Shown one piece after another: positions 14,621 through 37,925 of a stretch of DNA of 64,000 nt. Numbering within the stretch: position 1 is the first letter of the stretch; every line of letters begins with the position of its first letter. The DNA comes from Halofilum ochraceum (GTDB lineage Bacteria > Pseudomonadota > Gammaproteobacteria > XJ16 > Halofilaceae). Under the pieces are notes generated by a model that saw nothing but the letters and a program-made list of their open reading frames with translations, had not been told where the DNA came from and did not search any database. The stretch is taken from assembly GCF_001614315.2 (NCBI RefSeq), contig NZ_LVEG02000004.1, positions 310,001-374,000 of the forward strand, read 5' to 3'. Both the position numbers and the translations under genes were made by a program.

Positions 14621-14902
14621 TCAGCGGATCGCGTGCCACCCGGGGCCCTGTGGCGTCCCGCGCGTGCGGCCGTCGAAATCGTCCCGGATGTGCAGGAACT
14701 GCCCCTCGACGAGGCCCTCGAGCGTCTCATGCAGCTCGCGGTCGCGTTTCCCGCAGGCGAGATCGGCCGCCAGTTCGGTGACGGTGTGCTGACCGTCGGC
14801 AATGATGAGAAGACGGCGCGCCATCGGCGACAGCCGGTGCGAGCGGGTGCGGATTTCCTCGCGGCCGCGCGGGGTTTTGAGCAGGATCGCGTTGATGTCC
14901 AT
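14621..14902 (-). CDS. Small conserved protein of unknown function (paralogue of the one at 27511)
   Basis: A 93-residue soluble protein with no signal peptide. The core TPRGREEIRTRSHRLSP then ARRLLIIADGQHTVTEL looks like a helical, winged-helix-like domain, followed by a second helix (TLEGLVEGQFLHI). A paralogue of about 94 residues lies at 27511-27795; roughly 60 percent of the aligned positions are identical, including PRGREEI, ARRLLI and ADGQHTV. A strong AGGAGG lies 8 bases before the ATG. It precedes the hydroxyacid dehydrogenase and diverges from the diguanylate cyclase gene. Function unknown; a regulatory or adaptor role is a guess. Confidence 0.75.
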   Translation of the reverse strand: MDINAILLKTPRGREEIRTRSHRLSPMARRLLIIADGQHTVTELAADLACGKRDRELHETLEGLVEGQFLHIRDDFDGRTRGTPQGPGWHAIR

Positions 14903-15146
14903 CTGTATCCCTCCTGATCCGCCGTTGACGGAAAACGGACACTTGGTGGCCGTTTGTGCGCGTGATGGCGCGTAAAAATTGACGTTATGAGTCGTAAAGC
15001 AATGTCCGGGCCAACTTTTCGTCCGTAGCGTGCCCGAAACCCGCGAGCACTGGACTCATTGACCCGGGTACGTGTGGTTCGGGCGCGCGCAGCACTCCGG
15101 GTGATCGTGATGCCCTGCCGAGTGCCACCGGAGGTGACAATCCTCC

Positions 15147-16523
15147 ATGGAAGTTGCGTATATTCGGCGGATGTCCCATGCGCTCCACGAGCCCCCGCAA
15201 TATTTCATGGACCTGCTGCTCGATGCGGTCTGCGTGGTCGATCGCGAGAGCCGGTTCCTGTTTATCAGTGCGGCCGGCGAGCGGATATTCGGATATCCGC
15301 CCGACGAGATGATCGGGCGCCCGGTGCTCGACTTCGTTCATCCCGAGGACCGGGAACGGACCCGGAGCGCGATTCGCGAAATTCTCGACGGTGAGCAGAA
15401 ACCGCACTTCGAGAATCGCTACCTGCGCAAGGATGGCAAGACGGCACATATCATGTGGTCCGCGCGCTGGTCGGCGCGCGACCAGGTCCGGATCGCCGTC
15501 GCCCGCGACATCACCGAGCGCAAACGGGCGGAATCCCTCCAGAGGGCCATTTACGCCATCTCGGAGGCGGCCAATCGGGATGAGGGCCTGCTGACGCTGT
15601 TCCAGGGCATCGACGCAACGCTCCGCGATCTGCTCCCGATCGATGATCTGGTCGTCACGCTTGTCGACGCCGACACGGGAGAGGCTGGATGCCCCTGGCC
15701 CATCGAACCGGATGACCCGGGCGGCGATCCGGAGCGCGAGCTGATGCGGCAGCTCGGGTCTGTCGTGGCGGAGGACGGCGAAGCCCTGTTGTTGACGCCG
15801 GATTCCGTCGACGCGACGAAACAGCCGTTCGACACCCCGCCCGATGCACTTAATCACATCGCGGTCCCGCTCGAGTCGGGAAACGGTGTCGTCGGTTCGC
15901 TGGTCGCCCGCGCTGATCTCGGCTCGGTACGTTTCAGCGATGAGGATCGGAACCGGCTCCAGCTTATCTCGGTCCAGATCGCGGCGGCGATCGAACGCCG
16001 GGTGTTGCACCTCCGTCTTGAGCGCATGGCGCGGTACGATCAATTGACGGGACTCCCGAACCGGGCGCTTTTCCTCGATCGTCTCGCGACCGCCGTAACA
16101 GCGACGGCCCGAAAGCAGGCGCATCTTGCGGTGCTATACCTCGATCTCGATGAGTTCAAGCACGTAAACGATACTTTCGGCCATGCGGCGGGCGATCAAC
16201 TGCTGAAAGAAGTCGCTCATCGCTTGACCGATTGTATTCGTGGTGCGGACACCGTCGGCCGCCTCGGTGGTGATGAGTTCGTCGTATTGCTGGAGGGCAT
16301 CGAACGGGTCACGGATGGTGCAACCATCGCGAAAAAGATCGCCGCGGCTTTTGCAGCACCTTTTGGCCTCGCGGCCGGTACGGTGCAGGTATCGAGCAGT
16401 ATTGGAATCGCCGTATATCCTGAAGACGGACTGAATGCCGATGAACTGATCGGGCATGCCGACACCACGATGTACAGGGCGAAACGATCGCAGACGGGAA
16501 CCGGGCCCGGTTGGACTCTGTAG
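15147..16523 (+). CDS. PAS-GAF-GGDEF diguanylate cyclase
   Basis: A 458-residue cytoplasmic sensor that would make cyclic di-GMP. A PAS domain with PAC segment spans about residues 17-130 (FGYPPDEMIGRPVLDFVHPE, VARDITERKRAE). A GAF-like domain spans about 140-285, then a GGDEF domain starts at RYDQLTGLPNRALFLDRL. The active loop GGDEF (374-378) is intact, and RGAD (365-368) sits where the inhibitory I-site RxxD is found, so product feedback is expected. No membrane segment is seen. The start has GGAGG ahead of it, but a CCTCC directly before the ATG can pair with it; an alternative ATG lies at 15171. It is transcribed alone. Confidence 0.92.
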   Translation: MEVAYIRRMSHALHEPPQYFMDLLLDAVCVVDRESRFLFISAAGERIFGYPPDEMIGRPVLDFVHPEDRERTRSAIREILDGEQKPHFENRYLRKDGKTAHIMWSARWSARDQVRIAVARDITERKRAESLQRAIYAISEAANRDEGLLTLFQGIDATLRDLLPIDDLVVTLVDADTGEAGCPWPIEPDDPGGDPERELMRQLGSVVAEDGEALLLTPDSVDATKQPFDTPPDALNHIAVPLESGNGVVGSLVARADLGSVRFSDEDRNRLQLISVQIAAAIERRVLHLRLERMARYDQLTGLPNRALFLDRLATAVTATARKQAHLAVLYLDLDEFKHVNDTFGHAAGDQLLKEVAHRLTDCIRGADTVGRLGGDEFVVLLEGIERVTDGATIAKKIAAAFAAPFGLAAGTVQVSSSIGIAVYPEDGLNADELIGHADTTMYRAKRSQTGTGPGWTL

Positions 16524-16675
16524 TATCCACGCGCTCCGGGGGTGGATTTTACGGGCGTGTCTTTGACCCGGATCAAGTTGTACGTGCCGTGGAATGGTAG
16601 GGTAATCGCACTGTTCGGTGGTCGTAACGCCGCTGCGGGCGGTTTCCCTGTCGATCCGTAGCGCGAGTCCGGTTC

Positions 16676-17140
16676 ATGCGCGTGATCAGCCCGGCTTTTG
16701 AGGACGGTGAAATCATCCCCGCGCACTGGTGCGCGCCCGCTAGCGATACCTTGCCACGGCTCGAGATAGAGGGTGTTCCGCCATGCGCGGCCTCACTGGT
16801 CGTGATCCTCGAGGACCCCGAATCGCCCCTGGGGACGGTGACACACTGGCTCGTGTGGAATATCCCGCCGGAAACCCGTTACCTCGATCCCGCCGACCTT
16901 CCCGATGGTGCAACGGTTGGCCTCGATACGTATGGCGGGACTGGAGAGATGGGTCCTCCGCCGCCCACCGGGCGCCGCCATTATCGGTGGGAAATTCTCG
17001 CCCTGGACACCGCGCTCGATCTGCCGACCGGGGCTTCGCGCGTTCAACTTGACCCGGCGCTGCGGGGGCATGTGCTTGAGCGCGCGAGGTTGACCGCGAT
17101 CGTCGAGCAGCCGGAGCCCGGAGACACGCCCGGTGAGTGA
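16676..17140 (+). CDS. YbhB/YbcL-type PEBP family protein
   Basis: A 154-residue member of the phosphatidylethanolamine-binding/Raf-kinase-inhibitor-like family. Diagnostic segments are LVVILEDPESPLGTVTHWLV, WNIPPETRYL and TGRRHYRWEILALDT, which form the small anion-binding pocket. No signal peptide is present, so it is cytosolic like YbhB. The biochemical role of bacterial PEBP proteins is not established. It lies 36 bases upstream of the first BCCT gene in the same direction and may share its transcript. Confidence 0.88.
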   Translation: MRVISPAFEDGEIIPAHWCAPASDTLPRLEIEGVPPCAASLVVILEDPESPLGTVTHWLVWNIPPETRYLDPADLPDGATVGLDTYGGTGEMGPPPPTGRRHYRWEILALDTALDLPTGASRVQLDPALRGHVLERARLTAIVEQPEPGDTPGE

Positions 17141-17176
17141 GGCGACACCTGGTGGCATGACCGGAGCGGGTTCTTC

Positions 17177-18715
17177 ATGACGGGGCGGTTCCGGGCCTTC
17201 TTCGCGACGGTGAACCCGACGGTATTTACCGCGTCTGCGCTGATTGTGGTCACGTTCGTCGGCTTCGGGACCGGTTTTCCCGTGACCGCGAGCGCCGTGT
17301 TCGCAGACATCCATGCCTGGATTACTGAATATCTCGGCTGGATGTACCTGATCGTCGCCACCTTCTTCGTCGGGTTCCTCGTCTGGCTCGGCTTCAGCCG
17401 TTACGGAGGCATCCGTCTCGGTGAGCCCGGGGACCGGCCCGAGTTCGGCTTCTTCGCATGGTTCGCGATGCTGTTCAGTGCCGGGATGGGTATCGGTCTC
17501 GTCTTCTGGAGCGTGGCGGAGCCGATGCTGCACTACCAGCGGCCGCCGTATGCTGAAGGCGGAACGGCGGAGGCGGCGCGTCAGGCGATGGTGTATACGT
17601 TCTTCCACTGGGGGCTGCACGCGTGGGCCGTGTATGTCGTGCTCGGTCTGTCAATTGCGTATTTCAGTTTCCGGCATGGCCTCCCCCTGACGATCCGCTC
17701 AATCTTCTATCCGCTGCTAGGCGATCGGATCTACGGCCCGATCGGGCATGTGATCGATATACTGGCTGTGTTCGGCACCCTGTTCGGGCTCGCGACCTCG
17801 CTCGGCTTCGGTGCGATGCAGCTCAATACCGGCTTGAACCGGCTGGTCGGCCTGCCCGTCTCGCCTGGGTGGCAAGTGGGTGTGATCGCGACGATCACCA
17901 CGGTGGCGGTGCTGTCGGTCATATCGGGCCTCGATCGTGGCCTGAAATGGCTCAGCGTCTTCAACCTTGTGCTCGCACTGATCATGCTCGTGTTCGTGCT
18001 GATCGCTGGACCGACTCTGTTCATCATCCGTTTTTTTATCGATTCCACCGGTAGTTACTTTCAGCAGTTGATCGGGCTCAGTCTTACTGCCGATGCGATC
18101 TCCGGGTCCGCATGGCAGAAGGACTGGACGATGTTCTACTGGGCATGGTGGATCGCCTGGTCGCCGTTCGTCGGCATGTTTATCGCGCGCGTCTCGCGCG
18201 GGCGGACGATCCGTACGTTTATCCTGGGCGTGCTGGCGTTGCCGTGCCTGTTCGTATTCGCCTGGCTGGCCGTCTTCGGTGGCACGGCCCTGGAGCTGGA
18301 ACTGTTCGGGGACGCGGGAATCGCCGCCGCCGTCGCTGAGGACAATACCGTAGCGCTGTATCTCATGCTCGAGCAGCTACCCCTGGCGACGATCGCATCG
18401 ACGGTAATGACGCTGCTCATCGCCGTGTATTTCATTACGTCCTCGGATTCCGGCACGCACGTCGTCGATGCATTGATGTCGCGCGGCAGCGAACACTCGC
18501 TCAAGCGCCAGCGCGTGATCTGGGGCATCACCGAGGGTGGCGTGGCCGCAACACTACTCGTCATTGGCGGCGAGCAGGCACTTGACAGTCTCCAGACCGC
18601 CTCAGTGACCGCCGGCCTGCCGGTGGCCGTGATCCTCGTGTTCGCCTGCGCCAACCTTACGCGTGCATTGCGACGGGAGTATCAGGTCGCAGGGGTTGGT
18701 CCAGCCTCGAATTGA
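17177..18715 (+). CDS. BCCT-family osmolyte transporter (copy 1)
   Basis: A 512-residue secondary carrier of the betaine/choline/carnitine family with about 12 membrane segments. The family signature around FYWAWWIAWSPFVGMFIARV and SRGRTIRTF is clear. The unwound helix carries GMGIG, the glycine pattern seen in the Na+-coupled betaine carrier BetP. FFHWGLHAWAVY and a Trp-rich substrate box are also present. No long C-terminal osmosensory tail is seen; the protein ends about 30 residues after the last helix. It probably imports glycine betaine or a similar quaternary amine for osmoprotection or as carbon. A second BCCT gene lies at 37926. Confidence 0.95.
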   Translation: MTGRFRAFFATVNPTVFTASALIVVTFVGFGTGFPVTASAVFADIHAWITEYLGWMYLIVATFFVGFLVWLGFSRYGGIRLGEPGDRPEFGFFAWFAMLFSAGMGIGLVFWSVAEPMLHYQRPPYAEGGTAEAARQAMVYTFFHWGLHAWAVYVVLGLSIAYFSFRHGLPLTIRSIFYPLLGDRIYGPIGHVIDILAVFGTLFGLATSLGFGAMQLNTGLNRLVGLPVSPGWQVGVIATITTVAVLSVISGLDRGLKWLSVFNLVLALIMLVFVLIAGPTLFIIRFFIDSTGSYFQQLIGLSLTADAISGSAWQKDWTMFYWAWWIAWSPFVGMFIARVSRGRTIRTFILGVLALPCLFVFAWLAVFGGTALELELFGDAGIAAAVAEDNTVALYLMLEQLPLATIASTVMTLLIAVYFITSSDSGTHVVDALMSRGSEHSLKRQRVIWGITEGGVAATLLVIGGEQALDSLQTASVTAGLPVAVILVFACANLTRALRREYQVAGVGPASN

Positions 18716-18782
18716 ACGGGGTGATCACGGGAGCGTCGAGTGGCGCCACCGGGCATCGATCCGCAGCGCGACGGGAGAGGGC

Positions 18783-21521
18783 ATGAGCCGAAGAGACCAG
18801 GAAAGCGGGGCGTCGGGTGGATCCACGGATTCGGTGACCTGGCACGCCCTCACAGCCGATACCGTCCTGGATCGGCTGCGGTCGACCCGGGCGGGGCTTT
18901 CCTCGGAGGAGGCTGCACGGCGGCGGGCCGAAGTGGGCCCCAATCGTCTGCCGGAGAGCCGTGGGCGCAGCCCGGTCAAACGGCTCCTGAGTCAGTTCAA
19001 TAATCTCCTGATTGTCGTGCTCCTCGTGGCGGCGACGCTGTCCGCGCTCATGGATCACTGGGTCGACGCGGTGGTGATTCTGGGGGTGGTCCTGGTCAAT
19101 GCGGTGATCGGATTCGTTCAGGAAGGGCGAGCCGAGGAAGCCTTGAACGCGATCCGGGGCATGCTCGCGCCAAAGGCGTCCGTGAAGCGCGATGGCAAGC
19201 GCGTGCAGATCCCGGCGGAGGATCTCGTGCCGGGCGATATCGTCCTGCTCGAGCCCGGCGATCGGGTGCCGGCGGATGTGCGGGTGCTGCAGGGCCGGGG
19301 GTTGCACACGCATGAGGCCGTACTGACGGGGGAATCGGTCGCCGTAGAGAAGTCCGCTGAAGTGGTCCCTGAGGATGCGGCTCTCGGCGACCGGGGTTCG
19401 ATCGCGCATTCGGGGACGCTGGTCGTATCGGGACAGGGCGAGGGCGTTGTCGTGACCACCGGGCCCGCGACCGAGATCGGTCGCATCAGCGGCATGCTCG
19501 CCGGTGTGCAGGAGCTCACGACACCGCTGCTGCAGCAGATGTCGGTGTTCGCCCGACGACTGACTGCGGTGATCGGTGTCGTCGTAGCGGCCGTATTCCT
19601 GTACGGATGGGGCCTGCAGGGACAGCCCGGCGCCGAGATGTTCATGATCGTGGTCGGCCTTGCCGTGGCGACGATCCCGGAAGGCCTCCCGACGATCCTG
19701 ACCGTAACGCTTGCAATCGGCGTGCAGCGCATGGCCGGGCGCAACGCGATCATACGCCGGCTCCCGGCGGTCGAGACGCTGGGCGCGCTCTCCATCATCT
19801 GTTCCGACAAGACGGGCACGCTGACGCGCAACGAGATGATGGTCGCTTCCGTGGCGACCGCGGATGACATCTTCTCGGTGACCGGGAACGGCTACGACCC
19901 GCACGGCGATTTCCGGCGCGATGAGCGGCCCGTCGATCCCGATACGGAGCCCGCGCTGATGGAACTGCTCCGTGCCGGTTGCCTTTGCAACGACGCGGCC
20001 CTGCAGCATCGCGAAGATATCTGGTCCGTGAACGGGGACCCGATGGAAGGCGCATTACTGGTTGCCGCGATGAAAGCGGGGCTCGATCCGGTGACCGAGG
20101 GTGAACGCCTGCATCGGGTAGACGTGATCCCGTTCGACTCGGAGCACCGTTTCATGGCGACGCTGCACCATGATCACGCGGGGGGCGCGCCCGTGTTCTT
20201 GAAGGGGGCTCCGGAGCGGGTGCTGGAGATGTGTACGTTTCAGCGGCGTGACGGCGAAACCGTGGCGCTGGACATCGCGCCCTGGCGGGCGCGCATCCAG
20301 GAACTCGCCGGGCGCGGCCAGCGGGTGCTGGCAGCGGCGACGTTCCATCCCGCCGATGAGCCGGATCGACTTCATTTCAGCGATGTCGAAGGCGAGCTGG
20401 AACTGCTGGGACTTTTCGGTCTGATCGATCCGCCGCGTGATGAGGCGATCGCCGCGGTGCAAGATTGCCGCGCCGCCGGGATCCGGGTAAAGATGATCAC
20501 CGGTGATCATGGGACGACCGCGGGCGCCATCGCGCGGCAGCTCGGGCTGGAAAACCCGGATGACGTCGTCACCGGGCCGGATCTCGATGCACTCGACGAT
20601 GCAGCGCTGCGTGAGAGGGCGCCCGCGGTGGACGTGTTCGCCCGCACCAGCCCGGCACACAAACTGCGTCTGGTGGAAGCGCTGCAGTATCGGGGCGATG
20701 TGGTCGCCATGACCGGAGACGGCGTCAACGATGCACCGGCGCTCAAGCGCGCGGACGTCGGCGTGGCAATGGGGCGCGGCGGTACGGAAGCGGCACGGGA
20801 GTCGGCCGAGATGGTGCTGGCCGATGACAATTTCGCGTCGATCGCCGCAGCGGTGCGCGAGGGGCGAACGGTCTACGACAATCTGAAAAAGGCGATTCTG
20901 TTCCTGTTGCCGGTGAATGGTGGCGAAGCGATCAGCATCCTGCTCGCGGTGCTCGCGGGGCTGACGTTGCCGATTACGCCTTTACAGATCCTGTGGGTGA
21001 ATATGGTGAGTTCGGTCGCATTGGCGATGGCGCTCGCCTTCGAGCCCACGGAACCGGATGCCATGCGGCGCCCACCGCGCCGTCGGGACGAGCCGATCCT
21101 TTCGCTGCTCGTGGTCTGGCGCGTGGCCTTCGTATCGGCATTGTTCGCACTCGGTATTTTCGGGATCTTTGCGTGGACCCGAAGCCAGGGTGCCGATCTT
21201 GAACAGGCACGAACCTATGCGGTCAACACGCTGGTGGTCATGGAGATCTTCTATCTGTTCAATGTGCGTTATCTGGCCGGTCGCTCGCTGACGCTGCGCG
21301 GCATCCTTGGTACCCGGGCGGTGCTGATCGCGCTCGCGGCGGTCGTCGTGCTGCAGCTTATGTTCACGTACGCACCGTTCATGTCGCATTTCTTCGATAC
21401 GCGACCGGTGGAGTTCGTGCATGGCGTCGAGATTCTGGCGATCGGGATCGTGCTGTTCGCGATCCTGGAGCTGGAGAAGGCCGTACGACGCCACTGGGCC
21501 CCTCGAGCCGGAGAGGCCTGA
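18783..21521 (+). CDS. P-type cation-transporting ATPase (P2-like)
   Basis: A 912-residue ATP-driven cation pump. It has an N-terminal cation-ATPase domain, the actuator TGES loop (182-185), phosphorylation site DKTGTLT (Asp342), and hinge motif GDGVNDAP (646-653). Helix M4 reads IPEGLP, as in SERCA and PMR1-type pumps, and M5 keeps a Glu (NGGEAI). In M6 the segment LWVNMVSS replaces SERCA LWVNLVTD, so the Ca2+-site Asp is Ser; specificity (Ca2+, Na+, K+ or other) is therefore open. GGGAGAGGGC precedes the ATG at 18783; a more upstream frame overlaps the BCCT gene and looks spurious. It follows the BCCT gene by 67 bases. Confidence 0.92.
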   Translation: MSRRDQESGASGGSTDSVTWHALTADTVLDRLRSTRAGLSSEEAARRRAEVGPNRLPESRGRSPVKRLLSQFNNLLIVVLLVAATLSALMDHWVDAVVILGVVLVNAVIGFVQEGRAEEALNAIRGMLAPKASVKRDGKRVQIPAEDLVPGDIVLLEPGDRVPADVRVLQGRGLHTHEAVLTGESVAVEKSAEVVPEDAALGDRGSIAHSGTLVVSGQGEGVVVTTGPATEIGRISGMLAGVQELTTPLLQQMSVFARRLTAVIGVVVAAVFLYGWGLQGQPGAEMFMIVVGLAVATIPEGLPTILTVTLAIGVQRMAGRNAIIRRLPAVETLGALSIICSDKTGTLTRNEMMVASVATADDIFSVTGNGYDPHGDFRRDERPVDPDTEPALMELLRAGCLCNDAALQHREDIWSVNGDPMEGALLVAAMKAGLDPVTEGERLHRVDVIPFDSEHRFMATLHHDHAGGAPVFLKGAPERVLEMCTFQRRDGETVALDIAPWRARIQELAGRGQRVLAAATFHPADEPDRLHFSDVEGELELLGLFGLIDPPRDEAIAAVQDCRAAGIRVKMITGDHGTTAGAIARQLGLENPDDVVTGPDLDALDDAALRERAPAVDVFARTSPAHKLRLVEALQYRGDVVAMTGDGVNDAPALKRADVGVAMGRGGTEAARESAEMVLADDNFASIAAAVREGRTVYDNLKKAILFLLPVNGGEAISILLAVLAGLTLPITPLQILWVNMVSSVALAMALAFEPTEPDAMRRPPRRRDEPILSLLVVWRVAFVSALFALGIFGIFAWTRSQGADLEQARTYAVNTLVVMEIFYLFNVRYLAGRSLTLRGILGTRAVLIALAAVVVLQLMFTYAPFMSHFFDTRPVEFVHGVEILAIGIVLFAILELEKAVRRHWAPRAGEA

Positions 21522-21554
21522 TCAGAATCGATTGCCGTTGAGCCTGGAGACCGC

Positions 21555-22784
21555 ATGAGTACGCTCGATATCGACTTCGTCCGCAACCAGTTCCCCGCGT
21601 TCAGTGAGCCCTCACTGCAGGGGCAGGCGTTTTTCGAGAACGCCGGCGGTTCCTACGCGTGCGGTCAGGTCATCGACCGCCTTGACCGGTACTATCGGGC
21701 GCGCAAGGTCCAGCCATACGCCCCTTATGCGGCCTCCGCGGCGGCCGGCGCCGAGATGGACGAGGCGCGTGAGCGCCTGGCCGCATTGCTGAACGTGCAT
21801 GCGGACGAGCTGCACTTCGGCCCGTCAACCAGTCAGAACACCTACGTGCTTGCCTGTGCGTTCGGCGAACGGCTGCAGGCGGGCGACGTGGTGGTCGTAA
21901 CCGACCAGGATCACGAGGCCAATTCCGGCGTGTGGCGCCGACTCGCCAGCCGGGGCGTCGAAATCCGTGAATGGCGGGTCGACCCGAACAGTGGGCGGCT
22001 CGATCCCGCGGGACTGCAAGCGTTGCTGGATGACGATGTCGCGCTGGTCTGCTTCCCGCACTGTTCGAATATCGTCGGTCAGGAAAATCCGGTCGCCGAG
22101 TTGTGTCGCATGGCGCACGCGGTCGGTGCGCTGACCTGTGTCGATGCGGTGTCGTTCGTACCGCACGGTTTTCCCGACGTGCGCGCGCTCGGTACCGATA
22201 TTTATCTCTTCTCGAGTTACAAGACGTACGGGCCGCATCAGGGCATCATGGTGATGACCCCGGAAACGAACCAATGGCTACCGAATCAGGGCCATTGGTT
22301 CAACGGCGACAGTCCGACCAAACGCTTCTCTCCGGCCGGCCCCGATCATGCGCAGATCGCCGCGAGCGCAGGGATCGCGGATTACGTTGACGCGCTGTAT
22401 GCGCATCACCATGGGCAAGAGGCCACACCGGCCGGACGGGCGGCCGCGGTGCGCGGGTTGCAGGTCGAACACGAACGGCGGTTACTGGAACCTCTGCTGG
22501 ACTACCTGCGCGAACGGGATGATCTGCGTTTGATCGGCCCGGATCGGCCGGCGGAGCGGGTGCCGACGGTCGCATTGCATCTGGACCGCCCCGGCGTGGA
22601 GGTGGCCGCGGATCTCGCCCGCCACGGCATCATGGCTGGCGGTGGCGATTTCTATGCCGTGCGTCTGCTCCAGGCGCTCGGTATCGATCCGGATCATGGC
22701 GTGCTGCGGCTGAGTTTCGTCCACTATACCCATCCGGACGAGATCGATCGGGTGATCGCGGCGCTGGATGCCGTGCTGCGGTAG
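21555..22784 (+). CDS. Class V aminotransferase / cysteine-desulfurase-like PLP enzyme
   Basis: A 409-residue fold-type I PLP enzyme. The Schiff-base Lys is about residue 223 in FSSYKTYGPHQG. An Asp that would contact the pyridine ring lies in CVDAVSFVPHGF, and DQDHEANSGVW contains the His that stacks on PLP. An active-site Cys loop of true NifS/IscS desulfurases is not evident, so an aminotransferase or lyase role fits better. It begins 34 bases after the ATPase stop and is followed 21 bases later by another PLP enzyme, suggesting an operon for amino-acid metabolism. The substrate cannot be read from the sequence. Confidence 0.85.
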   Translation: MSTLDIDFVRNQFPAFSEPSLQGQAFFENAGGSYACGQVIDRLDRYYRARKVQPYAPYAASAAAGAEMDEARERLAALLNVHADELHFGPSTSQNTYVLACAFGERLQAGDVVVVTDQDHEANSGVWRRLASRGVEIREWRVDPNSGRLDPAGLQALLDDDVALVCFPHCSNIVGQENPVAELCRMAHAVGALTCVDAVSFVPHGFPDVRALGTDIYLFSSYKTYGPHQGIMVMTPETNQWLPNQGHWFNGDSPTKRFSPAGPDHAQIAASAGIADYVDALYAHHHGQEATPAGRAAAVRGLQVEHERRLLEPLLDYLRERDDLRLIGPDRPAERVPTVALHLDRPGVEVAADLARHGIMAGGGDFYAVRLLQALGIDPDHGVLRLSFVHYTHPDEIDRVIAALDAVLR

Positions 22785-22805
22785 CGGGAGCGGAGCGATG
22801 CAGGC

Positions 22806-23774
22806 ATGAACGAGTATCCGGCGATCGCGGACATCAGGCGCGCGGACGACGCGATCAGGCACGCGGTGGTCGAGACCCCCGTGTTCCGCTGGGACACGTC
22901 GGAGATCAACGACGCCCTCGATGCCGGGACCGAGGTGCATCTGAAGCTGGAACTGTTTCAGCGCACCGGCACGTTCAAGGCGCGCGGGGCGATCGTCAAC
23001 GCGCTGCGCCTGGATGCGGACCAGCGACGCCGCGGCATCACCGCGGTGTCCGCCGGCAACCACGCGATCGCGGCGGCCTACGCGGCCTCGGTGGTTGGCG
23101 CATCCGCGAAGGTGGTGATGCTCTCGGGCGCCAGCCGGATCCGCCGCGCCAAATGCGAGGCGTATGGGGCCGAGGTGGTGCTGGCGGATGATGTCCACAC
23201 CGCCTTCGAAATGGTCAAGTCGATCGAGCGCGATGAGGGCCGGACCCTGCTGCACCCGTTCGAGGGCGAGGGCGTGGCATTGGGGACCGGGACGCTCGGC
23301 CGCGAGTTCCATCGCCAGGCGGGCCCGGATGCGGTGATCGTGCCGATCGGTGGCGGCGGCCTCTGTGCGGGGGTGTCGGCGGCATTGAAGCAGCTCGATC
23401 CCGATGTCCGGGTCTACGGGGTCGAGCCCGAAGGGGCCGATACCATGAGCCGCAGTTTCGCGCGCGGTGAACCGGTCGGCATCGACGCGGTGACCACGAT
23501 CGCCGATTCACTCGGGGCGCCGTACGCAATGCCCTACAGCTTCGGTGTCTGCCGCCGATTCGTGGACGACATCGTGACCGTGAGCGATAACGAACTGCGT
23601 GACGCGATGGTGCGGTTGTTTACCGGCATGAAGCTCGCCGTCGAACCCGCCGGCGCGGCCGCCACGGCGGCGCTGATCGGCCCGCTCCGGGAACGCCTTG
23701 CCGGTCAGCGGGTCGGGCTTATCGTCTGTGGCAGCAATATCGGGACGGCGGATTACGCGGCGATCGTCGGGTAA
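22806..23774 (+). CDS. Threonine/serine dehydratase-like PLP enzyme
   Basis: A 322-residue fold-type II PLP enzyme of the threonine dehydratase/serine racemase group. PLP Lys is about residue 58 in RTGTFKARGAIVNAL; SAGNHAIAAA binds the substrate carboxylate; the tetraglycine-type loop PIGGGGLCAG binds phosphate. Length matches the short catabolic or racemase forms lacking an ACT domain. It would convert threonine or serine (or a beta-hydroxy amino acid) to a 2-oxoacid and ammonia. It directly follows the class V aminotransferase-like gene. Confidence 0.88.
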   Translation: MNEYPAIADIRRADDAIRHAVVETPVFRWDTSEINDALDAGTEVHLKLELFQRTGTFKARGAIVNALRLDADQRRRGITAVSAGNHAIAAAYAASVVGASAKVVMLSGASRIRRAKCEAYGAEVVLADDVHTAFEMVKSIERDEGRTLLHPFEGEGVALGTGTLGREFHRQAGPDAVIVPIGGGGLCAGVSAALKQLDPDVRVYGVEPEGADTMSRSFARGEPVGIDAVTTIADSLGAPYAMPYSFGVCRRFVDDIVTVSDNELRDAMVRLFTGMKLAVEPAGAAATAALIGPLRERLAGQRVGLIVCGSNIGTADYAAIVG

Positions 23775-23801
23775 CCCGCCGTTTCAGCTGTCGCGCTACC
23801 C

Positions 23802-24347
23802 TCAGGCCCTGCCCAGGCGCTCGAGCGTGTCGGCCTGCAGGATCTCGATCCAGTAGCCGTCCGGATCCTTCACGAACGCCAGCCCCTTCATGTTGCCGTC
23901 GTCGGGGCGCTTCACGAATTCCGTGCCGAGTCTTTCCAGCCGTTCTGCAGTCGAATACACGTCGGGTACGGTGATGCCGATGTGACCGTAGCCCTTCGGT
24001 TCCTCGTTGCCGCTGTGGAACTGGAGGTCAGGTTTCTCTTCGTCGCCCCAGTTATGGGTCAGTTCCAGTAGTGCCTCACGCCCGAAATTGAACGTCGTGC
24101 GTTTGGCGTCGTCGCCGGGAACGCTGGCGGCCTCCGCCTCGCCGAGATAGCCAAGGAAATACAGACTGAACTGCATGTCCTCGAAATCGAGACGCCGGAT
24201 CAGGCGCATCCCGAGACCACGGGTGTAGAAATCCAGGCTGCGCTCGGGGTCCTTGATCCGGACCATGGTGTGATTGAGCCGGTACTGATCGGTTTCCGTG
24301 TCCGGCCGCTCGCAGAGGCCGGGGGCATGATCGAAATGGCGGGGCAT
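23802..24347 (-). CDS. gloA: Lactoylglutathione lyase (glyoxalase I)
   Basis: A 181-residue glyoxalase I that isomerises the methylglyoxal-glutathione hemithioacetal to S-lactoylglutathione. The metal set His/Glu/His/Glu is visible in LNHTMVRIKDPERSLDFY, LLELTHNWG, GHIGITVPDVY and GYWIEILQ. The length and inserted loop (NWGDEEKPDLQFHSGNEEPK) match the longer, Zn2+-type forms found in eukaryotes and pseudomonads. The start at 24347 is supported by GGAGG 9 bases ahead. It is convergent with the threonine-dehydratase-like gene and lies 52 bases downstream of the PagL-like gene in the same direction. Confidence 0.95.
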   Translation of the reverse strand: MPRHFDHAPGLCERPDTETDQYRLNHTMVRIKDPERSLDFYTRGLGMRLIRRLDFEDMQFSLYFLGYLGEAEAASVPGDDAKRTTFNFGREALLELTHNWGDEEKPDLQFHSGNEEPKGYGHIGITVPDVYSTAERLERLGTEFVKRPDDGNMKGLAFVKDPDGYWIEILQADTLERLGRA

Positions 24348-24399
24348 GTTTTCTATCCTCCGAGTCGCTGTAATCTGCGGGCAGAATGACCGGCGATTC

Positions 24400-24957
24400 T
24401 CAGAACCGGCTGCCGATTTCCACGGCAATCAGATCAACCCCGGGGTTGGCGTCATAGATCCCGGCATTCGATGTGTGCTGCACGCGGGCGCCGACAACCC
24501 AGTCCACTTTGGGGTACCAGCGCAGACCGATGTGACTGGTGAACTCGAACGGGCCTCCCAGATTGCGGTTATCGCTTTCGTAATCCGAGAACAGCGTCGG
24601 CTGGATACCGAGTGCGAGACGCCAGCCGTCCGCGCGCAGCGGATACTCGAGCGTGGGACCGACCGCGAATACGATCGCATGGTCGCCGCCGCCCTGCCAG
24701 TAGCTCAACGCGGTTTCCCAGCGCGCGGTGCCACCTTCCGGGAGCCAGGGATCCAGCACGTGCTCCTGGATGAACCGGGCTTCCCAGCGGGCATAGAATT
24801 CCGCGGTGTTCACGCCGTCGCCCGCGGCGGTGCGGATCCCGATCTCACGCTCGTTGGCACCACCTGCGCCGTCTGCATGAGCGGGTCGGGGGGTGAGCGA
24901 CGAAAACACGAGCAGCATGAGCAGCGTCGCCAGCGTGAACTTGATTGCCGTGTGCAT
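24400..24957 (-). CDS. PagL-like lipid A 3-O-deacylase (outer membrane)
   Basis: A 185-residue outer-membrane beta-barrel. A signal peptide (FTLATLLMLLVFSSLTPRP then AHA) precedes alternating aromatic strands and a C-terminal Phe. The C-terminal motif HTSNAGIYDANPGVD matches the His-x-Ser-Asn active site of PagL, which removes the 3-hydroxyacyl chain at position 3 of lipid A. The acidic residue 14 positions after the His is Asp, where Pseudomonas PagL has Glu. The start at 24957 has only a weak ribosome site. Confidence 0.78.
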   Translation of the reverse strand: MHTAIKFTLATLLMLLVFSSLTPRPAHADGAGGANEREIGIRTAAGDGVNTAEFYARWEARFIQEHVLDPWLPEGGTARWETALSYWQGGGDHAIVFAVGPTLEYPLRADGWRLALGIQPTLFSDYESDNRNLGGPFEFTSHIGLRWYPKVDWVVGARVQHTSNAGIYDANPGVDLIAVEIGSRF

Positions 24958-25317
24958 AGCGGTTGCTTCAGGGTGCTGGTAGCGGTCGCCGTGATTCCTA
25001 CGGCGGTGCACGCAGATGATCGTGGTGATTGCCTTTGCCGTGTACCGCTGGACGTCTGACGGGCAAGCTGGCCGGTCTCTGGCAGAGGGGGATTGTAATA
25101 ATTTTCTCCCTCGCCAGGTAAGTGGCCCGCGATCGGTTGCCCCCTCTGACCGCCAATCGGCCGAGCGCAAACCGCACCAGTCGTTTTAGCGGTGCCCTTG
25201 CCTATCCCGATTCGGGTGAGCCGGTTCGGTCATGTCGCCGGAGCGTGGGGCGTGAGCGGATCGATGAATCCTGTCGCCGGCCACGGGGCAGATCGGTACC
25301 GGTACCGCCGCGACGGA
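24958..25317. other. Intergenic region upstream of the PagL-like gene
   Basis: This 360-base stretch separates two minus-strand genes. A possible minus-strand -10 element TACAAT (25092-25097) lies in an AT-rich patch flanked by GAGGG and CCCTC, about 135 bases before the PagL-like start; its -35 partner is weak. No ORF or RNA gene was recognised. Confidence 0.35.
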
Positions 25318-25746
25318 TCAGTAGGGCGAGACCTTGCGCACCGTGAAGGTAACGGGGAGGGGATCGAAGCCCTGGAACTCCAACTGGATATCGGCCGTGT
25401 CGCCCGGTTCCAGGCGACCGCTCTGCACGAAGAGCATCATCCGGGGGCCGTCGGGACCGAACGTGAGCGTACGGTCCGGCTCGATCAGCCGGGGCAGGGA
25501 CAGCGGATCCCACATGGTAAACGCGCTCTGGCTCGGCCGCTGGAACTCGATGCGTGCGAAATCGTCACTGCGCGCGCCCGTGAGCCGCAACGAGCGTTCG
25601 CCCGTGTTCGTGAGACGCACGAACGCCGCGTGCGGCATGACAAGACCCGGCACCCAGGCGATGGTTGCGTCTTCGACCTGCACCGGTGGTGTCCTCGCCA
25701 CGGCGGGCTGAACGGCCAGCAGTGCGACCAGCAACAGTATACGCAT
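25318..25746 (-). CDS. PCuAC-family periplasmic protein with degenerate copper motif
   Basis: A 142-residue exported protein with the PCuAC (DUF461) fold, a family that delivers Cu(I) to cytochrome oxidase. A signal peptide (MRILLLVALLAVQPAVA) is followed by AFVRLTNTGERSLRLTGARS, typical of the family. The usual H-x10-M-x21-H-x-M ligand set is largely lost: by eye the positions read Gln (EFQRP), Asp (TMWDP), Arg and Met (GPRMM). Only the last Met is kept, so copper binding is doubtful. GGAG lies 7 bases before the ATG. It diverges from asnB; no oxidase genes are near. Confidence 0.75.
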   Translation of the reverse strand: MRILLLVALLAVQPAVARTPPVQVEDATIAWVPGLVMPHAAFVRLTNTGERSLRLTGARSDDFARIEFQRPSQSAFTMWDPLSLPRLIEPDRTLTFGPDGPRMMLFVQSGRLEPGDTADIQLEFQGFDPLPVTFTVRKVSPY

Positions 25747-25962
25747 GGGTTCTCCGGGCTCTTGCGCAACGGCCTCGCTTTCCAATGCCGATGATCGCGC
25801 CCGTGGACGGTGCCGCAAAACCCGCAGATGGTTCTGTATCCTGAAAGCGACGCGAAAACGTCGCACATGCGATAAGAGTCGTCGAGTCGAGTCGGTCTCG
25901 TGCCCATGCACTCCCGCATGATGTCCGTGAACTCATTCAGGCAATGGAGCCCCAATCTCACA

Positions 25963-27456
25963 ATGTGTGGAATCGTTGCCCTCCAGGGCGAGACCGATCC
26001 AGCAACTGTCCATAGTATGCTCGATACCATCCAGCACCGCGGCCCGGACGATCGAGCCGTCCATGACCACCGCGCCGGCGCCACGCTCGGTCATACCCGA
26101 CTCTCCGTGATCGATCCGGGCGGCGGCCGCCAACCGCTCACCGCCGACGGCACCGCGCTCGTGTGCAACGGGATGATCTACAACGATCGGCTGTTGCGTG
26201 CGCGCATCGGGCCGGACCGTTTCAGCACCGAGACCGACAGCGAGAGCATCCTGCAGGGGTATCTGGCCTGGGGCACGGCGGTCGTGGACCACATCGACGG
26301 CATGTTCGCCTTCGTCCTGGTTGATCGCGACGGGCGCTGCGTCGCCGCCCGCGATCCGCTCGGCAAGAAGCCCCTGTTCTGGGGGCGTATCGGCACGGCG
26401 ATCGTGTTCGCCTCGGAGATCAAGGCGCTCGATGGCCTCGCCGACGATATCGAAATATTCCCGGCCGGTTGCGTCTGGGACAGCCGCGACGGAATGCGCC
26501 AGTATTACGCAGTGCCACAGCCAAGCGATGGCGGCTACGGTGAGTGCGACGCGCTGGCGAGCGTACGTGTCGGGCTGGAACGCGCCATTGCCCGGCGTCT
26601 GCGTTCCGACGTCCCCTTGGGTGCGTTTCTCTCGGGTGGACTCGACTCGTCGGTGATTGCCGCGATCGCGCAGCGCCACCTGGGCAATCTGCACACGTAT
26701 GCGGTCGGCCTGCTCGGTTCAAGCGACCTGGCGGCGGCGCGTCGGGTCGCTGAGCACCTCGGCACGATCCACCATGAATATGTCATCGGTCCCGAGGAGA
26801 TCACCGCCGCCTTGCCAGGGGTGATCCGCCATCTCGAGAGTTACGATCGCGACCTCGTTCGCAGTGCCGTGCCGACCTGGTTCGTGGCCCGTGAAGCGGC
26901 TCGGCACATGAAGGTGGTGTTGACCGGAGAGGGGGCCGACGAGCTGTTCGCCGGCTATGCCTATCATGCCGATTACACGGACGATGAAGCGCTGCAGGAG
27001 GAACTGCATCGCTCGCTGACGGCGATGCATTCCATCAACCTGCAGCGCGTCGATCGCATGACCATGGGGCATTCACTGGAAGCGCGTGTCCCGTTTCTCG
27101 ATCGGGAGATGATCGATCTCGCGATGAGTCTGCCGGCCGCACTCAAGCAGCGGCCGGAGCAGGGGTGCGACGGCGAGAAGTGGATCCTGCGCAAGGCATG
27201 CGAAGACCTCCTGCCGCCGGAGATCGTCTGGCGTGGAAAGCTCCAGTTCGACGAAGGCAGCGGCTTCTCCGAGTACCTCGCCGATCATGCCGATCGGGCG
27301 TTCGAGGCCGGTGAGATTGAATCGGTGGGGCCGGATGAGTCTGTGGAAGAGGCCCTGTACCGGCAGTTGCTGCGCGACTCGGATATCCATACCGATGCCG
27401 TCATGGGTTTGACGGACCATTGGCGCAGTGGGCGCACCATTGATCACGCTGCCTGA
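25963..27456 (+). CDS. asnB: Asparagine synthetase (glutamine-hydrolysing)
   Basis: A 497-residue two-domain enzyme forming Asn from Asp, ATP and glutamine. The start must be 25963 because processing of MCGIVALQGE exposes Cys as the N-terminal nucleophile. The glutaminase domain has QHRGPDD, HTRLSVID and CNGMIYN. The synthetase domain carries the pyrophosphate loop LSGGLDSSV and the later TGEGADELFAGY and SLEARVPFLD. At about 497 residues it is shorter than the 550-residue E. coli AsnB but within the family range. The gene stands alone and converges with the small unknown gene at 27511. Confidence 0.92.
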   Translation: MCGIVALQGETDPATVHSMLDTIQHRGPDDRAVHDHRAGATLGHTRLSVIDPGGGRQPLTADGTALVCNGMIYNDRLLRARIGPDRFSTETDSESILQGYLAWGTAVVDHIDGMFAFVLVDRDGRCVAARDPLGKKPLFWGRIGTAIVFASEIKALDGLADDIEIFPAGCVWDSRDGMRQYYAVPQPSDGGYGECDALASVRVGLERAIARRLRSDVPLGAFLSGGLDSSVIAAIAQRHLGNLHTYAVGLLGSSDLAAARRVAEHLGTIHHEYVIGPEEITAALPGVIRHLESYDRDLVRSAVPTWFVAREAARHMKVVLTGEGADELFAGYAYHADYTDDEALQEELHRSLTAMHSINLQRVDRMTMGHSLEARVPFLDREMIDLAMSLPAALKQRPEQGCDGEKWILRKACEDLLPPEIVWRGKLQFDEGSGFSEYLADHADRAFEAGEIESVGPDESVEEALYRQLLRDSDIHTDAVMGLTDHWRSGRTIDHAA

Positions 27457-27510
27457 ACCCCATGGGGCCCGATTGTTGCGGCAGTCGGGCGTCCCGGCCG
27501 CGCATGGGCC

Positions 27511-27795
27511 TCACGCGCTCGCCTGTTTCCCGCCCTTGGGAGGCGTCCGGCGTCGATCGTATTCGTCGCTGATGTGCAGATAGCGACCATCGACGAGTTG
27601 CTGCAGTGTCTCCAGCAACCCGGAATCCGCCGGCGTGCATGCGAGTTCGCGTGCGAGATCGCTGACCGTATGCTGACCATCCGCCATGATCAGCAACCGT
27701 CGAGCCAGTGGAGTCAGATCGTGCTCACGGGTCTGGATTTCTTCACGGCCGCGAGGGCTTTTCCGCAGAATCGTGTCCTTGTCGATCACGGACAT
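27511..27795 (-). CDS. Small conserved protein of unknown function (paralogue of the one at 14621)
   Basis: About 94 residues, clearly related to the protein at 14621-14902 (PRGREEI, then ARRLLIMADGQHTVSDLA and LVDGRYLHI). The ATG at 27795 is chosen by alignment with the paralogue, whose start is fixed by a strong AGGAGG. This start lacks a good ribosome site, and an in-frame ATG at 27942 would add 49 basic, Gly/Ser-rich residues. The C-terminus is a basic tail (RRRTPPKGGKQ). It diverges from the class IV aminotransferase gene and converges with asnB. Function unknown. Confidence 0.72.
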   Translation of the reverse strand: MSVIDKDTILRKSPRGREEIQTREHDLTPLARRLLIMADGQHTVSDLARELACTPADSGLLETLQQLVDGRYLHISDEYDRRRTPPKGGKQASA

Positions 27796-28011
27796 CGTCG
27801 ATTGGGCCGCGTTCCCATCACTTGATCCGCCGGAATCCCCGGGTTGATTTCCGTTTTTGCGTCTACGGGAAAACAGACCGATCCCCCAAAAGGGCTTTCC
27901 GAACGTGTAGATTATGCGTGCGGAAAACGCAAGGGATCGCATGGCTCACGAGTTGCGGCTCCATTCCAGTCTGAGAAACCACGCGGAAATATTTCTACAG
28001 GGTAAGCGCTT

Positions 28012-33061: not shown

Positions 33062-35503
33062 ATGACAAAGCTTCTTCCCGGGCGCGCGCAGGTCGTGATC
33101 GTCGGCGGCGGCGCTGTCGGCTGCTCGGTGGCCTACCATCTTGCCCACCGTGGCTGGCGCGATGTTCTGCTGCTGGAGCGGGACCAGCTTACCAGCGGCA
33201 CCACCTGGCACGCCGCCGGCCTGGTCGGGCAGCTGCGCGCGACGCCGAATATGACCCGGCTCGCACAGTACGGCACGGAACTCTACGGTGCTCTCGAGGC
33301 CGAGACCGGCCAGCCCACGGGGTTCCTGCAGCGCGGCTCGATCATGCTGGCAAGTTCGGATGGTCGCATGGATGAAATCCGCCGCGCGCACTCGACTGCG
33401 AACTGTTTTGGCCTCGAAACGCATCTGCTGGCCCCGGAAGAGATCCAGGAGCGCTGGCCGCTTGTCGATACCGAGGGGGTGCGCGGCGGAATCTGGCTGC
33501 CGAAGGACGGCCAGATCAACCCGGCGGATCTGACCCAGGCACTGGCCCGCGGGGCGCGCCAGCACGGTGTGACCGTACGTGAGCGTACACCCGTGCGCGG
33601 AATCCGGCGCGCAAATGGCCGGGTGGCCGGCGTCGATACCGACGAGGGCACGGTCGAGGCCGAATATGTTGTCAACTGTGCCGGCATGTGGGGCCGCGAG
33701 CTCGGGCGTATGGCCGATGTGGACGTGCCGCTGCACGCGGCCGAGCACTTCTACGTCGTGACCGAGAACCTGGCCGAGCCCCCCGGCGCGCTGCCGGTCC
33801 TGCGGGACCCGGATCATGCGATTTACTTCAAGGAGGATGCCGGCAAGCTGCTGGTCGGCATGTTCGAGCCGGTCGCGAAGCCCTGGGGCATGGATGGCAT
33901 CCCCGAAGACAGTTCTTTCACGCAACTGCCTGAGGACTGGGATCACCTCGCCCCGCAGCTGGAGGCCGCGATGGAGCGGGTACCCGCGGTCGGCGAGGCG
34001 GGGATCCAGCTGTTCTTCAACGGCCCGGAGAGCTTTACCCCGGACGACCGCTATCTGCTGGGTGAGACGCCCGAACTGCCGGGCTTTTTCGTCGCCAGCG
34101 GTTTCAACTCCGTGGGCGTGCAGTCGGCGGGCGGGGCCGGGCGCGTGCTCGCGGACTGGATCGTCGACGGCCATCCGCCCATGGACCTGTCCGACGTCGA
34201 TATCCGGCGCATGCTTGGATTCCAGAACAACCGCAACTACCTGCATGACCGGACCGTCGAGGGTCTGGGGCTGTTGTACGCGATGCACTGGCCGTATCGC
34301 CAGTACGAGACGGCCCGCAATGTGCGCCGTTCGCCCCTGCATGACCGCCTCGCCGCGCGCGGTGCCGCCTTCGGCGAAGCCGCCGGCTGGGAGCGGCCGG
34401 ACTTCTACGGCGACCCCGGTACGACGCCGACCTACGACTACAGTTTCGGTCGCCCCGGCTGGTTCGAGGATCACGCCGCCGAGCACCGCGCGGCCCGCGA
34501 GGACCTGGTGCTGTTCGACCAGAGCGCCTTCGCCAAGCTGCTGGTGCAGGGCCCGGATGCCGAGGCGGCGCTGCAGTGGGTCAGCTCCGCCCGCGTGGAC
34601 GTCGAACCCGGGCGCTCGATCTATACGCTGCTGCTCAACGCGCGCGGCGGGATCGAGTCGGACGTGACCATCACCCGCCTGGACGAAGAGCGGTTCCTGA
34701 TCGTCTCCCCCGCGACCGCCCAGCGCCGCGACCATGAGTGGTTGCGCGCGAACCTGTCGCGAGACCTGCACGTCACGGTCACCGACACCACCTCGTCCGA
34801 GGCCGTCATGGGCCTCATGGGCCCGCGTTCGCGTGACTTCTTGCAGGCCCTCACCGGTGCCGACCTGTCCAATGAGGCCTGTCCATTCGGGCACTTCGTC
34901 GAGCTCGATATCGGTTATGCCCGCGTACGGGCCGTGCGTATGACCTACGTCGGCGAACTCGGCTGGGAACTCTACGTGCCGACCGAATTCGCCGCCGGCG
35001 TGTTCGACACGATCATGGGCCAGGCCGACGCACCGCGGCTGGCCGGTTTCCACGCGTTGCACTCCCTGCGCACCGAATCGGGCTATCGCCACTGGGGCCA
35101 TGATATTACCGACGAGGACGACCCGCTGGCCGCGGGCCTCGGCTTCGCGGTCGCGCGCGACAAGGATTTCATCGGCCGCGAGGCGGTGGATGCGCTGCGC
35201 GAACAGCACCGTTCGAAACGGCTGGTCTCGATCCGCCTCGATGACCCGGAACCACTGCTGTTTCACGACGAACCCATCCGGCTCGACGGCCGGATCGTCG
35301 GGCGCACGACCTCTGGCCGCTATGGGCACAGCGTGGGGGCCGCAGTCGCGCTCGGCTGGGTCGAGCATCCGGATGGGGCGCATATCGACGCCAACTTCCT
35401 TGAAGGCGATGGCTTCGAGGTCGAGGTCGCCGGTGAGCCGGTGGCGGCGCGGCTATCGCTGAAGCCGTTTTACGATCCGCGGCGTGAGCGGGTGAAAGGC
35501 TGA
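33062..35503 (+). CDS. Dimethylglycine/sarcosine dehydrogenase-like flavoprotein with GcvT domain
   Basis: An 813-residue two-domain enzyme. The N-terminal DAO/FAD domain carries GGGAVG (15-20) and TSGTTWHAAGLVG, in which His50 corresponds to the His that binds FAD covalently in dimethylglycine dehydrogenase. The C-terminal half (from about residue 430) is a folate-binding aminomethyltransferase (GcvT) domain, with TYVGELGWELYVP and SLRTESGYRHWG. It would oxidatively demethylate dimethylglycine, sarcosine or a related N-methyl amine and pass the one-carbon unit to tetrahydrofolate. With two BCCT carriers in the window, betaine-derived substrates are plausible. It is controlled from the region shared with the XRE-cupin gene. 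Confidence 0.88.
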   Translation: MTKLLPGRAQVVIVGGGAVGCSVAYHLAHRGWRDVLLLERDQLTSGTTWHAAGLVGQLRATPNMTRLAQYGTELYGALEAETGQPTGFLQRGSIMLASSDGRMDEIRRAHSTANCFGLETHLLAPEEIQERWPLVDTEGVRGGIWLPKDGQINPADLTQALARGARQHGVTVRERTPVRGIRRANGRVAGVDTDEGTVEAEYVVNCAGMWGRELGRMADVDVPLHAAEHFYVVTENLAEPPGALPVLRDPDHAIYFKEDAGKLLVGMFEPVAKPWGMDGIPEDSSFTQLPEDWDHLAPQLEAAMERVPAVGEAGIQLFFNGPESFTPDDRYLLGETPELPGFFVASGFNSVGVQSAGGAGRVLADWIVDGHPPMDLSDVDIRRMLGFQNNRNYLHDRTVEGLGLLYAMHWPYRQYETARNVRRSPLHDRLAARGAAFGEAAGWERPDFYGDPGTTPTYDYSFGRPGWFEDHAAEHRAAREDLVLFDQSAFAKLLVQGPDAEAALQWVSSARVDVEPGRSIYTLLLNARGGIESDVTITRLDEERFLIVSPATAQRRDHEWLRANLSRDLHVTVTDTTSSEAVMGLMGPRSRDFLQALTGADLSNEACPFGHFVELDIGYARVRAVRMTYVGELGWELYVPTEFAAGVFDTIMGQADAPRLAGFHALHSLRTESGYRHWGHDITDEDDPLAAGLGFAVARDKDFIGREAVDALREQHRSKRLVSIRLDDPEPLLFHDEPIRLDGRIVGRTTSGRYGHSVGAAVALGWVEHPDGAHIDANFLEGDGFEVEVAGEPVAARLSLKPFYDPRRERVKG

Positions 35504-37714: not shown

Positions 37715-37925
37715 GTGCTTTCCTCATGCCTTTGCTGTAGGGGGTTTTGATGGCGCGCCGTATGCGCGTCATATCGGGAACCGGGCACTATACCGGTGGT
37801 GACGTCCGCTCGCAGCCCGCCGCTTCAGGCCCCGTCTGTATCGCGTCGGTGGCGGGGCGGGGTGCATGCCGGCGGTTGCCTGATTGGTGTACCGTGGCCC
37901 CGCGCACCCGATCCAGAGGTCCCCC

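Follow-up and report, generated by a model that had tools for sequence, protein, structure and literature searches.

The question raised by this locus is what two small, similar proteins, here called P0003 and P0004, might do in Halofilum ochraceum. Their genes lie in a stretch of 64,000 nucleotides of contig NZ_LVEG02000004.1, which is referred to below as the window. A preliminary description of the window had presented the two proteins as paralogues with a winged-helix-like pattern and no well-characterised family, and had suggested a role as adaptor or regulator. Judged by sequence, P0003 and P0004 are solo versions of a widespread uncatalogued domain of 70 residues with the pattern KTxKGxxEIxxR...L...RxLLIxxDG. 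We think, with somewhat more confidence than doubt, that they are free-standing paralogous winged-helix copies that dock proteins and do not read DNA. An adaptor role is the one best supported by the sequence comparisons and the predicted structure.

Both genes were found where the preliminary description had placed them, and they lie on the minus strand, about which it said nothing; reading the plus strand of both stretches gave unrelated residues. When P0003 was compared with P0004 by BLASTP, 51 of 86 residues were identical and 68 of 86 similar (E 8e-35), which bears out the claim of paralogy with about 60 percent shared residues. The local alignment score was 254, against a maximum of 54 among 1000 shuffles. 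The motifs that had been singled out, PRGREEI, ARRLLI, ADGQHTV and LHI, are present in both proteins. Taken as predictions, P0003 and P0004 look like real genes. The start codon of P0004 is less certain, in that the ribosome-binding site is weak and the frame extends upstream without a stop as far as an ATG at 27942. A search around both genes gave neither a sigma-70-like promoter nor a terminator. A count of paralogues over the organism's own genome (3.64 Mb, 35 contigs), as the preliminary description had proposed, gave two copies, namely P0003 and P0004 only. A third match (E 0.11) was rejected as a paralogue; it sits in a frame that we named by eye as MotA/ExbB-like.

We then define the family by its motif and by hidden Markov models (HMMs). 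The membership motif, KTxKGxxEIxxR-x3-L-x4-R-xLL-x3-DG, was found in both proteins, with S for T in P0004 and R for K in both. An HMM of the short forms scored P0003 at 58.6 and P0004 at 56.0 bits (E 2e-17 and 1e-16), and an HMM of the AsmA-like long forms described below scored them at 41.7 and 33.7 bits (E 4e-12 and 1e-9); these sets exclude the window proteins but were gathered by searches seeded with them. The best of 1000 shuffles reached 8.4 bits with the short-form HMM and 6.1 bits with the AsmA-form HMM. In a profile comparison, a set of five members matched a separate set of 28 members with a probability of 99.7.

The searches of databases gave the following results. No model of Pfam or NCBIfam scored above its cut-off for P0003 or P0004, and PHROGs contained no match for either at E 0.1. 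The PDB, searched by sequence, gave no match at E 1 with P0004 and a best E of 0.015 with the family profile. Plasmid proteins gave no match to the relative at locus L066, which was the query there in place of the window proteins, and a scan of named genomes with P0004 as query found no relative. That is, this is a large domain family for which we found no dedicated Pfam or NCBIfam model, although a general winged-helix model scores above its cut-off with one long form.

The starting profile, made of five members, detected the domain in 38 of 369 genomes of the class at E 0.01, and a fuller profile detected it in 26 of 369 at E 1e-4; several of the 38 rest on matches of E 0.001-0.01 that were not recovered with the fuller profile. 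In a sample of the phylum, 16 of 299 genomes had a match at E 0.001, and the 13 accepted were all of the same class. Marginal matches that by eye were not family members, namely L050 (Lrp/AsnC-like), L051 and L062 (ArsR-like) and L052 (PqqD-like), were rejected, and rejected matches account for 3 of these 16 genomes, including both outside the class. In one order, the domain was present in 103 of 200 sampled genomes. When named genomes were scanned on the basis of one conserved peptide, 89 relatives were found and 80 loci retrieved. By our own count and genus assignment, 51 of the 80 belong to Burkholderiales (Duganella, Undibacterium, Ralstonia, Noviherbaspirillum and others), and among the others are Accumulibacter, Thauera-type, Solimonas and Thiodictyon loci. 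Metagenome-assembled genomes labelled Nitrospirae (L094 and L117) and Synechococcaceae (L071) also appear among the loci, and these may be true or misbinned.

The fold of the domain was predicted with AlphaFold. The model of P0004, based on an alignment of 48 sequences, had a mean predicted local distance difference test (pLDDT) value of 84.6, and 66 of the 94 residues had a value of 90 or more. According to DSSP, its elements follow the order strand-helix-helix-strand-helix-helix-strand. The best Foldseek match was the SEA/GATOR1 winged helix (SEA chain, probability 1.00, E 0.074), in subunits that we take to be of the Nprl2/Nprl3 type. The VIA list re-examines the Foldseek matches, so that families missing from it are not thereby excluded; in it a GATOR1 chain reached Z 9.6 over 83 residues (root-mean-square deviation 3.2), which is nearly the whole domain, and Rv2067c reached Z 8.0. 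The GATOR1/SEA proteins, however, are eukaryotic, form part of a large complex and share about 10% identity with the window domain, and common descent is not supported here. The C-terminal winged helix of PKMT (PF21782, PKMT_2nd) was the only Pfam family hinted in both window proteins; its scores of 16.5 and 15.7 bits fall below the cut-off of 27.8 bits, and the window proteins have no methyltransferase domain. The structural matches to the model support a winged helix, as had been proposed earlier from the pattern of helices, and nothing more specific.

Charge was counted at the position of the recognition helix (P0004 residues 58-70), which is net negative in 46 of the 48 members and net positive in 1 of the 48. 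The wing is net positive in only 9 of the 48. Because 46 of the 48 members are acidic at the recognition-helix position, we read the domain as a probable protein-docking module. At least 45 of the 48 members share K12, T13, K15, G16, E19, I20, R23, L27, R32, L35, D39, G40 and L67 (consensus letters, numbered as in P0004). Most of the conserved residues lie on the first strand, the first helix and the DG turn of the model, a pattern that may mark a protein-binding surface.

The company that the domain keeps in other proteins was also examined. A C-terminal three-helix domain of about 65 residues was present in 68 of 77 distinct proteins from named genomes, largely Burkholderiales, as counted with a partner-domain profile built from 19 members of the same set. 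It occurs in all relatives of 146 residues or more, and none of the nine shorter ones has it; among these nine, L128 is cut by a contig end. In the model of the full-length relative L066, three more helices follow a disordered linker, and no clear structural match to these helices was found. P0003 and P0004 end after the winged helix and so do not have this majority form. Other short forms are three proteins of 107 residues from Solimonas, an open reading frame (ORF) of 71 residues in G666 and a protein of 88 residues in G266 (genomes are numbered with G).

A search of 100 genomes of the order in which 103 of 200 genomes have the winged helix gave 31 matches to the three-helix domain, and in at least three of these the protein has no winged helix. 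Two PP2C phosphatases, at L223 (G649) and L228 (G734), end in this domain, and a protein of 107 residues (L229:705-1028, G109) is little more than the domain itself. The gene after the phosphatase at L223 reads by eye as a Ser/Thr kinase. We treat the PP2C connection of the three-helix domain to signalling as a lead only. A fusion of the winged helix to signalling domains, which the preliminary description had proposed to look for, did not occur directly in the proteins scanned, and the link that was found runs through the partner domain at the end of the two phosphatases.

Much longer proteins carry the same winged helix. Among the matches listed, a hand count gave long frames of 700 residues or more with the domain in at least 41 genomes of the same order. 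From the matches listed we selected long proteins, and 33 complete ones from 32 genomes were checked, in sets of 19 and 14; L172, L193, L245 and L247, which are cut by the end of the locus or contig, stand outside the 33. All 33 have the layout of an N-terminal winged helix, a linker, one hydrophobic span and an AsmA-like module. The linker measures 37 to about 1200 residues and is rich in alanine and in charged or Gln residues (18 measured), and 342-394 residues follow the span. Pfam AsmA matched 24 of the 33 at E 0.01 or better (16 of the 19, best 1.4e-13, and 8 of the 14), and the AsmA-clan scores among those listed were all below the Pfam cut-off (for example AsmA 15.2 against 29.8 and YhdP 26.5 against 46). 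All 14 proteins of the second set matched the profile of the first 19 at E 7e-75 or better, and the profile of the long forms found a TamB chain (E 7e-6), with no single stretch passing alone. Because the Pfam AsmA matches, the mutual profile match and the TamB match agree, the predicted C-terminal modules are, as a set, AsmA-like. Searches with the default filters of HMMER missed 5 of 20 loci (L194, L204, L206, L208 and L213), which were recovered with the filters off.

From the analogy to known AsmA proteins, the winged helix of these long forms presumably lies in the cytoplasm. In one further protein (L246:458-1570), a winged helix, a membrane span and TonB_C (E 7.5e-11) are joined. Not every long frame is of the AsmA type, since the frame of 526 residues at L190 consists of a winged helix and the three-helix domain and has no span; L248 has no known partner. 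Within the AsmA family (AsmA, YhdP, TamB and DUF748), the 33 AsmA-like proteins thus share the winged helix of the window proteins at their N-terminus, but P0003 and P0004 themselves, whose 93 and 94 residues are taken up by the winged helix plus a short tail, have neither membrane helix nor AsmA module.

We also scanned the neighbours of the relatives, 47 upstream and 45 downstream, which were chosen by eye from 77 and 70; those left aside were mostly near-duplicates. A longest-ORF rule, not a gene finder, defined the neighbours. No Pfam family occurred in more than 3 of the 47 upstream neighbours (among 25 of 37 families listed) or in more than 7 of the 45 downstream ones (among 25 of 46 families listed). 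An SMC/AAA-like gene accounted for the 7 downstream cases, which, judging by eye, we ascribe to the close relatedness of Duganella-type records. The lack of a recurrent neighbour family is as expected of an adaptor and not of a pathway enzyme.

The genus of the organism offers a view of the age of the pair. The genome G001 has an orthologue of P0003 of 93 residues between the same genes as in the window; by eye, a D-2-hydroxyacid dehydrogenase lies on one side and, at a greater distance, a YbhB-like gene on the opposite side. This orthologue differs from P0003 by 20 synonymous and 12 non-synonymous changes (non-synonymous divergence, dN, 0.060; synonymous divergence, dS, 0.35). Between P0003 and P0004, the values over 77 codons were dN 0.30 and dS 1.05. 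Both proteins are under purifying selection. P0004 was not found in G001. In G002, of the same genus, neither protein was found, and one neighbour of each has relatives there. From the divergence of the paralogues compared with that of the species, the duplication would predate the split from G001 with a later loss of P0004 there, or else P0004 was acquired elsewhere. The G+C content at third codon positions is 0.67 in P0004 against 0.72-0.86 in 14 other genes read in frame, a set that leaves out the PagL row, which is out of frame. An asparagine-synthase-like gene beside P0004 was not found in G001, and this together with the low third-position value indicates that the neighbourhood of P0004 is variable.

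The positions of the features are collected in Table 1.

Table 1. Features of the two winged-helix genes in window coordinates.
Feature	Position	Strand	Basis
P0003, solo winged-helix protein, 93 residues	14621..14902	-	ORF and translation; same-genus orthologue with the same flanking genes; dN/dS about 0.17
Shine-Dalgarno-like AGGAGGG just upstream of P0003	14909..14915	-	Direct reading of the sequence
P0003 family motif KTPRGREEIRTR...L...RRLLI.ADG	14792..14878	-	Alignments and conservation counts
P0004, solo winged-helix protein, 94 residues	27511..27795	-	ORF and translation; AlphaFold mean pLDDT 84.6
P0004 family motif KSPRGREEIQTR...L...RRLLIMADG, residues 12-40	27676..27762	-	Alignment and conservation counts
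P0004 helix 58-69, recognition-helix position, acidic family-wide	27589..27624	-	DSSP of the model and charge counts

Several observations were made beside these features. A CGGCGGATCA stretch is common to the upstream regions of both genes (window 14902-14925 and 27795-27835), and it is possibly a remnant of the original duplication, or chance. A PAS-GGDEF gene is divergent from P0003 in the window, and beside the orthologue in G001 it appears by eye fragment-like (L004:1152-1601). Elsewhere in the window we noted by eye BCCT-type transporters at 17177-18715 and 37884-39479 and a dimethylglycine/sarcosine-dehydrogenase-like protein at 33062-35503, which together suggest osmolyte uptake and use.

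Three other explanations have to be weighed against docking. If P0003 and P0004 were small DNA-binding transcription regulators of the ordinary winged-helix type, the predicted fold would suit them, Lrp/AsnC and MarR proteins do appear lower in the list of structural matches (Z about 5), and one relative matches HTH_20 (E 3e-4). The helix that should read DNA, however, is not basic but acidic across the family, the wing is seldom positive, no recurrent neighbours are there to be regulated, and the AsmA and TonB_C forms tie the domain to a membrane span. We therefore regard this explanation as rather unlikely, and of the two roles named in the preliminary description it is the adaptor that we favour, in view of the acidic recognition-helix position and the membrane and periplasmic fusions. 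We hold it equally doubtful that the two proteins descend from a two-domain ancestor, have shed its C-terminal helical domain and are now decaying. The frequency of that domain among the relatives from named genomes and the patchy occurrence of the two genes in G001 and G002 would fit such a decay, but the dN/dS of P0003 between species is about 0.17, both paralogues are intact, and other short forms exist in Solimonas, G666 and G266.

A further explanation, that the proteins are recognition elements (RREs) of a pathway that modifies ribosomally synthesised peptides (RiPPs), seems to us very improbable. RREs and PqqD (ApyI, TigE, TglHI, PbtF) are winged-helix-like and bind peptides, not DNA, and several such peptide binders gave VIA values of Z 5.0-6.5 with the model, namely TigE 6.5, TglHI 6.2, PbtF 5.8 and TbiB1 5.0; TigE and TglHI are presumably of the RRE type. 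The family profile also matched a PqqC/D chain weakly (E 0.18), the rejected genome match L052 reads as PqqD-like, NCBIfam gave weak matches to ApyI (20.7 and 16.7 bits), and the asparagine-synthase-like gene stands beside P0004. The cut-off for ApyI, however, is 200 bits, that gene and P0004 are transcribed towards each other, and a reading of the ORF translations by eye, with no family search of the window neighbours, showed no RiPP maturase or precursor in the vicinity. Moreover, RREs are strictly defined by three strands followed by three helices (PMC12710340), and the order in the P0004 model differs from this.

Some of our results nevertheless weigh against the docking of proteins. All 48 members carry a net positive charge on helix 28-38 (mean +2.1), and a basic surface able to touch nucleic acid thus exists; likewise the N-terminus of one long form passes the Pfam cut-off for HTH_24 (27.9 against 21.9 bits), a model named for a DNA-binding winged helix. 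The VIA values of 8-9.6 are moderate for a small winged helix, and, according to the tool itself, top values of 7-8 are frequent. The window copies have none of the fused modules seen in their relatives. Neither the three-helix domain (best E 0.21; own genome E 0.34) nor the AsmA-like module, sought with the A9 profile and no positive control, turned up in G000, G001 or G002. In the own genome PF05170 also gave no match, but it detected its target in only 3 of 14 control genomes, and with A9 uncontrolled the absence of an AsmA module is therefore weak evidence. Since G002 has neither protein and G001 has no P0004, neither is needed throughout the genus. Docking itself is a prediction from sequence and model.

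Protein docking is still the explanation that we prefer. Paralogy, selection, the predicted fold, membership of the family, the fusion architectures and the acidic recognition-helix position come from computed results, and we infer the binding of a protein, the membrane topology and the location of the binding patch. In the relatives the winged helix forms the N-terminal and presumably cytoplasmic module of three kinds of protein, namely small soluble ones with the three-helix domain, AsmA-like ones with one span in the inner membrane and, in one case, one with TonB_C. The conserved patch of the first strand and first helix (K12-T-x-K-G-x2-E-I-x2-R23 with R32, D39 and G40) may bind a cytoplasmic partner, and the fused copies may in this way recruit a cytoplasmic factor to the envelope protein. 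The solo proteins P0003 and P0004 would bind that partner, or one like it, in solution, as soluble adaptors or as competitors. Because neither the three-helix domain nor the AsmA module was found in their own genome, they probably have another partner here.

To our knowledge, the cytoplasmic control of AsmA-type proteins is an open question. AsmA-type proteins are implicated in phospholipid movement to the outer membrane (PMC8912898). We speculate, with little confidence, that AsmA-type lipid-transfer proteins are controlled from the cytoplasm through the winged helix. It would sense or recruit a cytoplasmic factor and so link the flow of lipid towards the outer membrane to what happens in the cytoplasm, and P0003 and P0004 would be diffusible members of this control system. 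A tie to Ser/Thr phosphorylation is possible in that case, because the partner domain ends PP2C phosphatases.

Among the open-licence papers in PMC, we found no description that we recognised as this domain or its fusion to AsmA. The proposal that the two window proteins belong to no well-characterised family stands for both, but they are not isolated, being members of a large family so far uncatalogued. What is added here is such a family, common in one order, and an AsmA-like fusion not found in print. A domain found in roughly half of the 200 genomes sampled from one order deserves a Pfam or NCBIfam model of its own. As a conserved domain on the presumed cytoplasmic side of AsmA-like proteins that also occurs as small soluble proteins, it may offer a tractable handle.

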